This document shows, piece by piece, positions 25,516 to 31,668 of a stretch of 64,000 nt of DNA; the first letter of the stretch is position 1; every line of letters starts with the position of its first letter. This DNA is from Achromobacter sp. MYb9. GTDB taxonomy: Bacteria; Pseudomonadota; Gammaproteobacteria; Burkholderiales; Burkholderiaceae_B. The translations under genes were made by a program, and so were the position numbers. Under the pieces are notes generated by a model that saw nothing but the letters and a program-made list of their open reading frames with translations, was not told the DNA's origin and searched no databases. The stretch lies in assembly GCF_002975275.1 (NCBI RefSeq), contig NZ_PCOQ01000001.1:682001-746000 (forward strand). The letters are read 5' to 3'.

Positions 25516-27345
<1,830 letters not shown>

Positions 27346-27366: not shown

Positions 27367-28422
27367 TCAATACGACGGCGGCGGCAAGAGCGGCACCGGC
27401 GCGCGCTCTTTTCCAAAGACCGACCGGTACGCCAGGATGTTGAACACCAGCACCACCGGGATCCCCACGACCGCGCCGGCCATGACCAGGCGCATCGAAC
27501 CCAGCGCGCCCGCGCCGTCCCACAAGGTCATGTCGTCCAGGATGAGGTAGGGGAACAGGCTGTACGCCAAGCCGCTCAGCATCAGCAGGAACAACGCGAC
27601 GCAGAGCACAAACGGCAACCAGCTGAAACGGTCGGCACGGCCGGGCAAGCGAGCCAGCAGCATCTCGGCCGCCACATACGCCGCCAGCATCAGTACCCAT
27701 ACCGTGGCGGCCAGGCTCAGGTGCGCAATGTTGCTCCATTTATAGAAGATGCCCGCGTTGGCCAGCCCCAGCGTCACCGCGATGGCGACCATGCCCACGG
27801 CCGTCCAGCGGATGGCGTGGCGCGCCCACGCGGCGGCGCGGCGCTGCAGATCGCCATCCACCCGCATGACCAGCCAGGAGGCGCCCAGCAGCACGTAAGC
27901 CGCCACGGCGCACAGGCCCACGAACATCGCGAACCAGCCGTAGCCGGCGTCGGACTGATAGCCCGTGGCGATCCGGCCCAGTAGCATGCCCTGGCCGAAG
28001 GCCGTGATGATCGAGCCCGCCCAGAAGCCGAATATCCAGCGCGGCTTCATCTCGTTGCGCGCACGGATGCGGAATTCGAACGACACGCTGCGCAGCATCA
28101 CCCCCAGCACCATGCAGGTAAGCGGGCCATAGAGTTTGCCCAGCACCGCCCCCCATGCGAACGGGAACGCCGACGCGAACAAGCCCATGCCCAACAGCAG
28201 CCAGAATTCGTTGGCGTCGCGCCAGGGGCTCAAGAGCGACATCATGCGGCCGCGCTCATGTTCGGGCGCCAATTGCAGCAGGATGCCCACGCCCAGATCG
28301 AAGCCGTCCAGAACCATGCCCGCGGCAATCACCACGAACAGCAGCCCCATGAAGGCAAGCGGCATCCAGAAGGAGGGGTCTTCAGGGCTGAGGCCCTGCG
28401 AAGCGGCCAGCATGGCGATCAT
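27367..28422 (-). CDS. Cytochrome bd-type oxidase subunit II (CydB/CioB-like)
   Basis: A 351-residue membrane protein of the CydB family with about nine helices. The N-terminal block GMVLDGFDLGVGILLQL, the ANEFWLLLGMGLFASAFP region and LRSVSFEFRIRAR match family landmarks. It lacks any obvious defect. Its start overlaps the stop of the subunit I gene by four bases (ATGA), so the two are translationally coupled and probably form a complex. No CydX-type small subunit ORF is seen after it, and no cydDC. Because subunit I lacks heme ligands, a quinol oxidase role is doubtful for this pair. Confidence 0.85.
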   Translation of the reverse strand: MIAMLAASQGLSPEDPSFWMPLAFMGLLFVVIAAGMVLDGFDLGVGILLQLAPEHERGRMMSLLSPWRDANEFWLLLGMGLFASAFPFAWGAVLGKLYGPLTCMVLGVMLRSVSFEFRIRARNEMKPRWIFGFWAGSIITAFGQGMLLGRIATGYQSDAGYGWFAMFVGLCAVAAYVLLGASWLVMRVDGDLQRRAAAWARHAIRWTAVGMVAIAVTLGLANAGIFYKWSNIAHLSLAATVWVLMLAAYVAAEMLLARLPGRADRFSWLPFVLCVALFLLMLSGLAYSLFPYLILDDMTLWDGAGALGSMRLVMAGAVVGIPVVLVFNILAYRSVFGKERAPVPLLPPPSY

Positions 28423-29762
28423 GGCGAGCCTCCGCCCAGTTTGCGCACGGGCACGACGCCGTAGCGTGCCGCGTGGAACAGCATGGCGGCGAACGCGGCC
28501 AGCAGCAAGGCATAGAGCAGGCCATAGCCCACCAGCCCGTAGAGGACGGTGCTGGAGGCCGTCTGGCCCAACACTTCAGATTGCGTGATGGTGCCATTGA
28601 CGGCAAAGGGCTGCATGCCAATGATGGACACCCACCAGCCGGCCACCACCGCGATGCCGCCCGAGAACATCATGCCGCACAGCACGCGCTGCCACCAGAC
28701 CGGCAACGTGGACGGGTCCAGCCCGCGGCGGAACGTCCACAGGAACGTCACGCAGGCCACGGCGAGCATCAGCAAGCCCAGGCCCACCGCCACCCGCAGC
28801 GACCAGAAGGTCAGCGCGACCGGCGGCAACATGCCGGAATACTTGTCCAGGCCTTGATAGGTGCCGTCCGCATTGCGGTGCAGCCACATGCCGCCAGCGT
28901 TGCGGAGGGTCACGTCCGACAGGTTGGCATGCGTGCGCGCGTCCGGCCATCCGAAAATCACCAGTTGGGGCTCGGCGCCGCTTTCCCAGAAGCCGGCGGC
29001 GGCAGCCGCCTTGGCGGGCTGCAGCTTGGCCACCATCTGGCCGGCGCCCGTGGCCACCGGCACCTGCAGGAAGGCCGCGACCACTGCGATCACCAGCCCG
29101 GTCTTGAACGTGTTGCGTTCACCATCGCCCAGCGGCCGGCGCAGCGCCTGCAAAGCGGAGACACCCATCATCAGGAACGAGGCGGCCAACGCCGCGCCCA
29201 CGACCACGACGGCCATGCGCCAGCCGACCGAGGGATTCAGCACCACGGCCGCCCAGTCGTAGACCTGGTAGCGGCCATCGACCAGGATGGCGCCGTCTGG
29301 CGTCTGCATCCAGGACTGCAAGGCCAGCACCCAGAACACCGCCACCAGCTGGCCCACGGCCACCATCAGCACCGCCAGCGTATGCGCGCCATCGGACACC
29401 CGGCGCTGGCCGAACAACATGACGCCCAGGAAGCACGACTTCAGTATGAAGACGGACAGGATGCCGTAGCCCAACAAGGGGCCGGCGACATTGCCGATCT
29501 TGTCCATCAGGCCGGCCCACAGGCCGCCGATCTGGATCAGCACGGGCACGCTGGCGGCAAGCGTCAGCACGAAGGCCAGCGCGAATATGCGTACCCAGAA
29601 GCGGTAAGCGGCGGTCCAGCCGCCCCGGCCAGACCAGCGGGCGCGCACTTTGAAAAACAGCAGGACCCAGGCAAGCGCCAGCGAAACCGCCAGGAATAGC
29701 GCCAGAAAGCTCAGGCTGGCCACGAACTGCGCACGGGCCAGGGAAAGGGTGGATATATCCAT
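28419..29762 (-). CDS. CydA-like subunit I lacking all recognised heme ligands
   Basis: A 447-residue homologue of cytochrome bd subunit I. The frame can be matched to CydA/CioA landmarks (LARAQF, LLGYGILSVFILKS, LQSWMQTP, VLNPSVGWRMA, FWSLRVAVGLG, GWWVSIIGMQPF), but every cofactor residue I can place is changed. By E. coli numbering His19 is Leu20 here, Glu99 is Gly100, Glu107 is Lys108, His186 is Val185, Met393 is Ala325, and Glu445 is Ile380. Spacing within each block is preserved, so this is not misalignment or a frameshift. The ATG at 29762 is chosen because family similarity begins there; the open frame to 30062 is spurious. It is likely a membrane protein of another function, perhaps structural, regulatory or quinone-binding. 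Confidence 0.8.
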   Translation of the reverse strand: MDISTLSLARAQFVASLSFLALFLAVSLALAWVLLFFKVRARWSGRGGWTAAYRFWVRIFALAFVLTLAASVPVLIQIGGLWAGLMDKIGNVAGPLLGYGILSVFILKSCFLGVMLFGQRRVSDGAHTLAVLMVAVGQLVAVFWVLALQSWMQTPDGAILVDGRYQVYDWAAVVLNPSVGWRMAVVVVGAALAASFLMMGVSALQALRRPLGDGERNTFKTGLVIAVVAAFLQVPVATGAGQMVAKLQPAKAAAAAGFWESGAEPQLVIFGWPDARTHANLSDVTLRNAGGMWLHRNADGTYQGLDKYSGMLPPVALTFWSLRVAVGLGLLMLAVACVTFLWTFRRGLDPSTLPVWWQRVLCGMMFSGGIAVVAGWWVSIIGMQPFAVNGTITQSEVLGQTASSTVLYGLVGYGLLYALLLAAFAAMLFHAARYGVVPVRKLGGGSP

Positions 29763-29805
29763 GATGGCCCGTAGTGTAGAGCCAGTTACATGACTGTGGG
29801 GACAG

Positions 29806-29898: not shown

Positions 29899-31668
29899 AT
29901 GACCTCCGCCACGACGCCGACCCCAGCTGCATCCAATTTCCTGCTCAACATCGTCCAGGACGACCTCGAAGCCAATCGCTTCCAGGGCAAACGTTGGGCG
30001 GGCAAGCCTGGCCCGGCCGCCGTGCAGCAACAGGGGGCCCCGGATCCGGCCCGCATCCGCACGCGCTTCCCGCCGGAGCCGAATGGCTACCTGCACATCG
30101 GCCACGCCAAGAGCATCTGCGTGAACTTCGGCCTGGCGCGCGATTTCGGCGGCGTCTGCCACCTGCGCTTCGACGACACCAATCCCGAAAAGGAAGACCA
30201 GGAATACGTCGACGCCATCATCGAGGCCGTTCGCTGGCTGGGCTTTGACTGGAAGGCCGACAACGGCCAGGAAAACCTGTACTTCGCCAGTGACTACTTC
30301 GGCTACATGTACGAATTCGCCGAGGCGCTGGTCGAAGCCGGCCACGCCTACGTCGACGAGCAAAGCCCCGAAGCCATCCGCGCCAACCGCGGCACGCTGA
30401 CCGAACCCGGCATCGACTCGCCCTGGCGCAACCGCCCGGCCGCCGAGTCCGTCACGCTGCTGCGCGAAATGCGCGACGGCAAGCATCCCGACGGCAGCCT
30501 GGTGCTGCGCGCCAAGATCAACATGGCGTCGCCCAACATCAACCTGCGCGACCCGGTGATGTATCGCGTGCGCCATGCCACCCACCACCGCACGGGCAAC
30601 CAATGGTGCATCTACCCGATGTACAGCTGGGCCCACCCGGTGGAAGACGCGCTGGAAGGCATCACGCACAGTGTCTGCACGCTGGAATTCGAAGACCAGC
30701 GCCCGTTCTACGACTGGATCCTGGCGCGCCTGGCCGAACTGGGCAAGCTGGCCCAGCCGTTGCCGCACCAATATGAATTCGCCCGCCTGAACCTGAGCTA
30801 CGTCGTCACCAGCAAGCGCAAGCTGCTGCAACTGGTGCGCGAAGGCCACGTGGACGGCTGGGACGACCCCCGCATGCCGACCCTCTTCGGCCTGCGCCGC
30901 CGCGGCTACACGCCGGCCTCGATCCGCCTGTTCTGCGATCGCACGGCGGTATCCAAGTCCGATTCGCGCATCGACTACAGCCTGCTTGAGCAAGCCGTGC
31001 GCGACGACCTCGACCCCATCGCCGCGCGCTCGGTGGCCGTGCTGGACCCGATCAAGCTGGTCATCACGAACTACCCGGAAGGCCAGACCGAAATCTGCAC
31101 CGCGCCCCGCAACCCGCACGATCCGGAAGCCGGCTTGCGCGAGTTCCCGCTGTCGCGCGAGCTCTGGATCGAACGCGACGACTTCCGCGAAGAAGCGCCG
31201 AAGAAGTACTTCCGCCTGTTCCCCGGCAACACCGTGCGCCTGAAGTACGGCTACGTCGTGCGTTGCACCGGCTTCACCAAGAACGAAGCCGGCGACGTCG
31301 TTGAAGTGCAGGCCGAGTACCTGCCGGAGACCCGTAGCGGCACGCCGGGCGCCGACAGCGTCAAGGTCAAGGGCAACATCACCTGGGTCAGCGCGGCCCA
31401 TGCGGTGTCCGCGCAGATCCACCTGTACGACCGCCTGTTCGCCGACGCCCGCCCCGATGGCGGCGACAAGGACTTCCTGGCCTGCCTGAACCCGAACTCC
31501 AAGCAGACCGTCACGGCCTGGCTGGAACCCGGCACCGTTGCCACGCCGGGCGCCACCTGGCAGTTCGAACGCCTGGGCTACTTCACGGCCGACCTGAAGG
31601 AATCCTCCGAAGCCGCGCCGGTGCTCAACCGCATCGTGACGCTGCGCGATTCGTGGGCGCAAGGCTGA
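29899..31668 (+). CDS. glnS: Glutamine-tRNA ligase
   Basis: A class I aminoacyl-tRNA synthetase charging tRNA-Gln, 589 residues. The HIGH motif is in [19 protein letters not shown] and the KMSKS-like loop in [29 protein letters not shown] and [30 protein letters not shown] are GlnRS-specific (the latter contacts the acceptor end). The C-terminal anticodon-binding beta barrels are present ([14 protein letters not shown]). I use the ATG at 29899 rather than the TTG at 29869. A strong terminator follows. Confidence 0.96.

Follow-up and report, generated by a model that had tools for sequence, protein, structure and literature searches.

The cydAB-like gene pair described here lies within a window of 64,000 nucleotides (the whole stretch of Achromobacter DNA that was analysed). 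Judging by its sequence, it probably encodes a complex that is heme-free, is not an oxidase, is under selection, and has been derived from a short-Q-loop bd oxidase. Taken part by part, the complex is predicted with high confidence not to work as an oxidase, and the window protein very likely binds no heme.

The gene pair and its residues

Both genes are on the minus strand, between recQ and glnS, and the features of the region are as follows.

25516..27345, plus strand: recQ, convergent neighbour, downstream of the cydB-like gene
27367..28422, minus strand: cydB-like gene, 351 amino acids, with W57R and D105E in E. coli numbering (open reading frame, Pfam, alignment)
28419..28422, minus strand: ATGA overlap (4 nt) of the cydA-like and cydB-like genes
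28419..29762, minus strand: cydA-like gene, 447 amino acids, without heme-ligand residues (open reading frame, Pfam, alignment)
29773..29778, minus strand: -10-like TACACT, ending 10 nt before the ATG of the cydA-like gene
29899..31668, plus strand: glnS, divergent neighbour, upstream of the cydA-like gene

These coordinates, the uninterrupted cydA-like frame and the four-nucleotide overlap had been given correctly in an earlier, sequence-only reading of the window. That reading also called the CydB intact; its frame is indeed open, but the protein is not unaltered, since it carries W57R, as do all 69 CydB representatives of its type. The gap of 21 bases between the cydB-like gene and recQ leaves no room for a cydX-like gene. 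The window CydA scores 351 bits against PF01654 and the window CydB 203 bits against PF02322, both above the Pfam gathering scores, while NCBIfam's cyd models have curated cut-offs that both proteins fail to reach. The expectation that annotation would still call the pair cytochrome bd is therefore borne out for Pfam, and by the Bordetella literature discussed below, but not for NCBIfam.

With canonical cytochrome bd (E. coli CydAB, and the short-Q-loop CioAB type) the pair shares the PF01654/PF02322 homology, the order cydA-cydB, nine hydrophobic segments per subunit (found in both window proteins by a simple hydropathy scan), and the CydB residues D26, D58 and R100. It differs in having a CydA without heme ligands and with E107K, and a CydB with W57R and D105E. 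Two more CydA proteins (L001, L002) are carried by the window genome; they have all six ligand and donor residues and served, besides E. coli CydA, as the canonical comparison.

Alignment of the window CydA with E. coli CydA (NC_000913.3) gives the changes H19 to L20, E99 to G100, E107 to K108, H186 to V185, M393 to A325 and E445 to I380, and a phmmer comparison with the solved bd oxidases aligns the same blocks. All six replacements are as they had been claimed beforehand from the letters. The protein is thus without the b558 ligands H186 and M393 (V185, A325), without E445, H19 and E99 of the b595/d site (I380, L20, G100), and without the proton donor E107 (K108). The Q-loop is present, with K at 252 and with E257 replaced by A. 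The conserved His that ligates heme d is presumably H19. For the other positions, the accessible text of the published accounts gives H186 and M393 as the ligands of b558, E445 as the ligand of b595 and E99 as lying at heme d (PMC6853902), a conserved His as the ligand of heme d (PMC8951039), and E107 as the proposed last proton donor (PMC13189123).

Distribution, descent and genomic context

A collection of 208 loci contains 209 CydA-like reading frames, of which 171 have K or R in place of E107, 36 have all six residues, and 2 are fragments. The K/R class is represented by 72 CydA proteins less than 85% identical to one another. None of these keeps E99 or H186, while H19 is kept in 7, M393 in 5 and E445 in 4, and in 60 of the 72 none of the six residues is left. 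Position 107 (K in 70, R in 2) is not an independent count, because the class was picked by K or R there, but the other columns are independent. With copies included, the 171 K/R loci keep E99 and H186 in no case, H19 in 12, M393 in 12 and E445 in 8. The statement that every ligand has been replaced is accordingly true of the window protein but not of every member of the clade, some of which (L039, L155, L156 and others) retain some of them.

When 121 relatives were searched with the protein, 99 had some CydA match, canonical ones included. A two-motif scan of one genome per species returned 245 stretches, 202 of which encode relatives; the best 80 kept are titled Alcaligenaceae (78) or Burkholderiaceae (2). 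A match at E 1e-138 or better was counted by hand in 148 of the 268 genomes of the window's family, with a cut that misses fragmented, split and shortened copies, and several genera show canonical-level scores only. A search with the CydB alignment, scoring at most five candidates per genome and drawing no other genome of the window's family, gave 547.6 bits for the window genome and at most 291.6 bits for the other genomes listed among 369 of the class; among 398 genomes of the phylum, the others listed reached at most 301.2 bits. All 17 non-family loci taken from these tables keep HEEHME and CydB W57. Within the samples examined, the ligandless type is confined to the Alcaligenaceae-level family.

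A tree of 110 rows unites all 76 that carry K or R at 107 in a single clade (SH-aLRT 100), inside which L072 and L177 fall. A tree of 74 rows, built with the ligand columns omitted, again places the K/R rows (51) in one clade, at 100/100, with L185, the canonical row nearest to it, attached at 100/99; this second tree leaves out L072 and L177 for their long branches, L204-L208 for being second copies or long, and rows at least 72% alike. The shortened forms L248-L251, treated below, stand outside the trees under those names, L177 being the G121 one. Whether the losses are clade-wide was a check named at the outset, and the single clade in both trees answers it in the affirmative. The closest canonical relative of the clade (L185/L252) belongs to a genome with a ligandless pair as well; R already stands at its CydA K57, and no GlnS is found within the 16 kb around it.

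Irrespective of direction, the 74-row tree requires a minimum of 4 changes for H19, 5 for M393 and 4 for E445. Three loci attach near the base of the clade, at an unresolved fork, and all have K at 107 and neither E99 nor H186: L039 keeps H19, M393 and E445, while L155 and L156 (genus g26) keep H19 and E445. They are possible evolutionary intermediates. In the order that we infer, E107K and the loss of E99 and H186 came in a single step on the stem, and the other ligands were lost repeatedly afterwards; the one ligand kept by L194 and by L126 inside derived groups could also be a reversal. As a separate observation, the CydA frame of L053, L190, L198 and L199 runs for about 1,070-1,100 codons between stops, far past the gene, which is possibly an effect of high G+C.

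GlnS is present in every one of the 106 ligandless loci whose flanks reach 2.0 kb or more upstream and 2.6 kb or more downstream (a count that includes some genomes twice), and in none of the 33 canonical loci for which 1.2 kb of upstream sequence is available. The glnS gene is divergent in all 127 non-identical ligandless loci with the start in view, at a distance of 24-277 nt. The motif CT[AC][CAT]ACTA occurs in 106 of 128 upstream regions, compared with a mean of 0.8 in mononucleotide shuffles, and in 101 of the 106 its distance from the aligned start is the same, 9 nt; L039, L041 and L054 are among the loci without the box at that distance. Since TACACT is so near the ATG, the sequence suggests that the cydA-like mRNA may be leaderless or near-leaderless. 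An FNR/ANR-like box (TTGAY-N4-RTCAA) matches in 0 of the 128 upstream regions, and oxygen control through such a box is rejected.

Selection, the altered channel and alternative readings

Omega shows purifying selection on the ligandless pair. In 20 Achromobacter genomes, compared as 190 pairs, the median omega is 0.113 for the ligandless CydA (5-95%: 0.059-0.155) and 0.056 for its CydB (5-95%: 0.018-0.094). In those 20 genomes the canonical short-loop pair, which we take to be CioA/CioB, has medians of 0.065 for CydA and 0.115 for CydB, the 190 genome pairs being non-independent and the canonical B subunit being cut to 318 codons. Likeness between loci was counted where CydA has at least 380 and CydB at least 280 residues (126 non-identical ligandless loci and 34 canonical loci). 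CydB is the subunit with the greater likeness in all 60 disjoint ligandless pairs (sign test 1.7e-18) as against 1 of 16 canonical pairs, and the all-pair mean likeness is 0.522 for A and 0.619 for B in the ligandless class (7,875 pairs, 126 loci) and 0.553 for A and 0.490 for B in the canonical class (561 pairs, 34 loci). By omega and likeness alike, the usual order, in which the heme subunit is the most constrained, is reversed: in the ligandless pair CydB, not CydA, is the more conserved, and constraint has moved to it. The earlier impression that the pair is selected and not decayed is upheld by these omega values, by the fixed gene order and by the conserved -10-like box.

The proton channel of canonical bd consists of CydA K53, K57, E107 and E74 with CydB D105 and D58, according to the accessible text of a 2026 cryo-EM study (PMC13189123), where CydB W57, K109 and R100 are absent from the channel list. 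In the ligandless class K57 is R in all 72 CydA representatives, K53 is R in 71, and E74 is Leu in 64. Among the 69 CydB representatives, D105E and K109R, like W57R, are found in every one, R100 is kept in all 69, and D58 in 67. The CydB proteins of the clade have also gained the invariant residues R205, N222 and W242, and have in common a conserved N-terminal extension of about 20 residues. Channel residues that are fixed in altered form, next to ligands lost piecemeal, point to an old channel that persists as a network of charges, with the heme pocket free to drift.

The loss of the residues that hold the hemes, in a pair kept by a whole family, probably means a function other than respiring oxygen. 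In the mechanism that we consider the most likely one, the old cytoplasmic proton channel would have become a fixed network of charges (CydA R54, R58 and K108; CydB R68, D69, R111, E116 and R120), and the interface site would bind or pass, with no redox chemistry, either a proton or a small solute that is probably an anion. That the work of the complex is located in CydB and the CydA/CydB interface is somewhat probable; transport or binding of an ion or ligand at this interface is possible, though we would not call it probable.

A complex that still binds or senses quinone, with electron transfer lost and the Q-loop kept, has to be weighed against this. Most clade members keep the Q-loop, R391, and K or R at 252, and so might still bind quinone; P249, A253 and A254 of the loop, along with R391, are conserved in both classes, and canonical CydB carries a structural quinone, according to the accessible text of PMC13189123. 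Such a role is nevertheless unlikely, given that E257 is lost, that the loop-bearing CydA is the less constrained subunit, and that in four shortened positional orthologues CydA is cut across the Q-loop. These four (L248-L251, genera g80 and g81) occupy the glnS-linked place and have CydA frames of 378-402 residues, in which position 107 is still K or R and position 57 still R; their CydB has R57, R100 and E105. Place and signature suggest that they are orthologues of the ligandless pair. If they are, the quinol loop is dispensable, and CydB and the interface are the core. CydB D58 is kept in one of the four and is N, S or G in the other three, which weakens the case for a channel requiring that Asp. 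L250 has two overlapping CydB frames.

Across the 72 CydA representatives, H127 alone among the His residues reaches 85% conservation, and canonical proteins conserve it equally; of the Met residues, the start and M115 are conserved, M115 being canonical as well, and there is no conserved Cys. No His reaches 85% conservation in the 69 CydB representatives. Replacement ligands elsewhere are rejected, as neither subunit has a conserved His, Met or Cys able to substitute, and continued heme binding by the complex, with a reduced or unusual set of hemes attached through different residues, is quite improbable. The basal members speak for that reading, as they keep H19 with E or D at 445, and L039 also M393; because L039, L155 and L156 keep iron ligands, some relatives might still hold a heme. 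It would also find a parallel in archaeal CydAA', which reportedly works with b hemes only. There the ligand-poor paralogue has a CydA as its partner in an active enzyme. Set against that description, the window pair likewise has a CydA paralogue with its heme ligands lost, but the second subunit of CydAA' is a CydA paralogue while that of the window is CydB (PF02322), and the window operon has no ligand-bearing subunit.

The two canonical CydA proteins of the window genome could invite the view that the pair is a pseudo-enzyme partner, assembling or regulating the canonical bd oxidases of the same cell, and dead paralogues do often regulate live ones. This too seems improbable: of 9 genomes searched, 4 (G047, G186, G194 and G259, each 99% complete) have no PF01654 protein besides the ligandless CydA, the ligand state being read for G047 and G186 and inferred from the score for G194 and G259. 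On the same count, an obligate helper of canonical bd is disfavoured. Decay to a remnant without function might be argued from an in-frame TAG in G235, from split or partial matches in other genomes, and from the Bordetella cydB3 discussed below, little transcribed in the laboratory and frameshifted in 7 of 14 B. pertussis strains (18323 and 6 of 13 others; accessible text of PMC11257404), but it is rejected as extremely improbable on omega (0.056-0.113), gene order with its fixed neighbour, the conserved -10-like box and the invariant new residues.

Bordetella cydAB3 and the meaning of the pair

The window-type pair is very probably the cydAB3 of Bordetella (BB4012-4011; BP3225-3224). One locus, L201, encodes a CydA of the ligandless type in an open frame, with cydB in two overlapping frames; we take it to be, probably, B. 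pertussis 18323. The identification follows from this locus, the two-frame cydB being as reported for 18323, from the arithmetic of the published cydAB3 deletion, which implies about 1,338 bases between the starts (1,340 in the window), and from elimination.

Bordetella Cyd3, very probably of the same pair type, differs in print in being a predicted high-affinity bd oxidase, and cydAB3 (BB4012-4011) is listed as such by McKay 2024 (PMC11257404). In the accessible text of that paper, B. bronchiseptica without cydAB3 shows no phenotype in growth or in mice, the transcript level of cydAB3 in laboratory culture is close to that of flaA, no oxygen response is reported, and the ligand residues are not discussed. 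The five-locus deletion strain of that study grew worse in 5% CO2, a condition for which the accessible text gives no result on cyd3 alone. Strains with cyd3 only could not be made, nor could strains with only cco, cio, ctaD2 or cyo2, and for cyd3 the authors offer low transcription as a reason. As far as the accessible portions of other sources go, a 2007 survey gives a C/G tract of 9 in BP3224 versus 6 in BB4011 (PMC1891110), a 2026 paper describes bp3224-3225 as a second cytochrome bd that is not expressed under laboratory conditions (PMC12914433), and a 2026 review has the Bordetella oxidases annotated computationally (PMC13367067). A literature search aimed at ligandless CydA proteins, covering mainly openly accessible papers, listed no description of a bacterial CydA-CydB pair without ligands.

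The heme-free, non-oxidase reading can be extended to a fuller scenario, held tentatively and at close to an even chance. The pair would be the first heme-free branch of the bd superfamily, arising by duplication, with E107K and the loss of E99 and H186 on its stem; heme binding would then have become unimportant, the channel would have been turned into a non-redox device (an ion or anion carrier, or a ligand sensor), and the result would have been kept across the Alcaligenaceae, Bordetella included. If this is true, a respiratory oxidase has been turned into a heme-free machine with its intermediates still visible (L039 and genus g26). The ligandless pair would be a natural test of the role of CydB without hemes, and a warning that a Pfam match alone does not make an oxidase. 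For Bordetella, the count of oxidases would have one entry fewer, and a Cyd3 that is not an oxidase may help to explain the failure of the Cyd3-only strains (accessible text of PMC11257404), although cco, cio, ctaD2 and cyo2 alone failed too.
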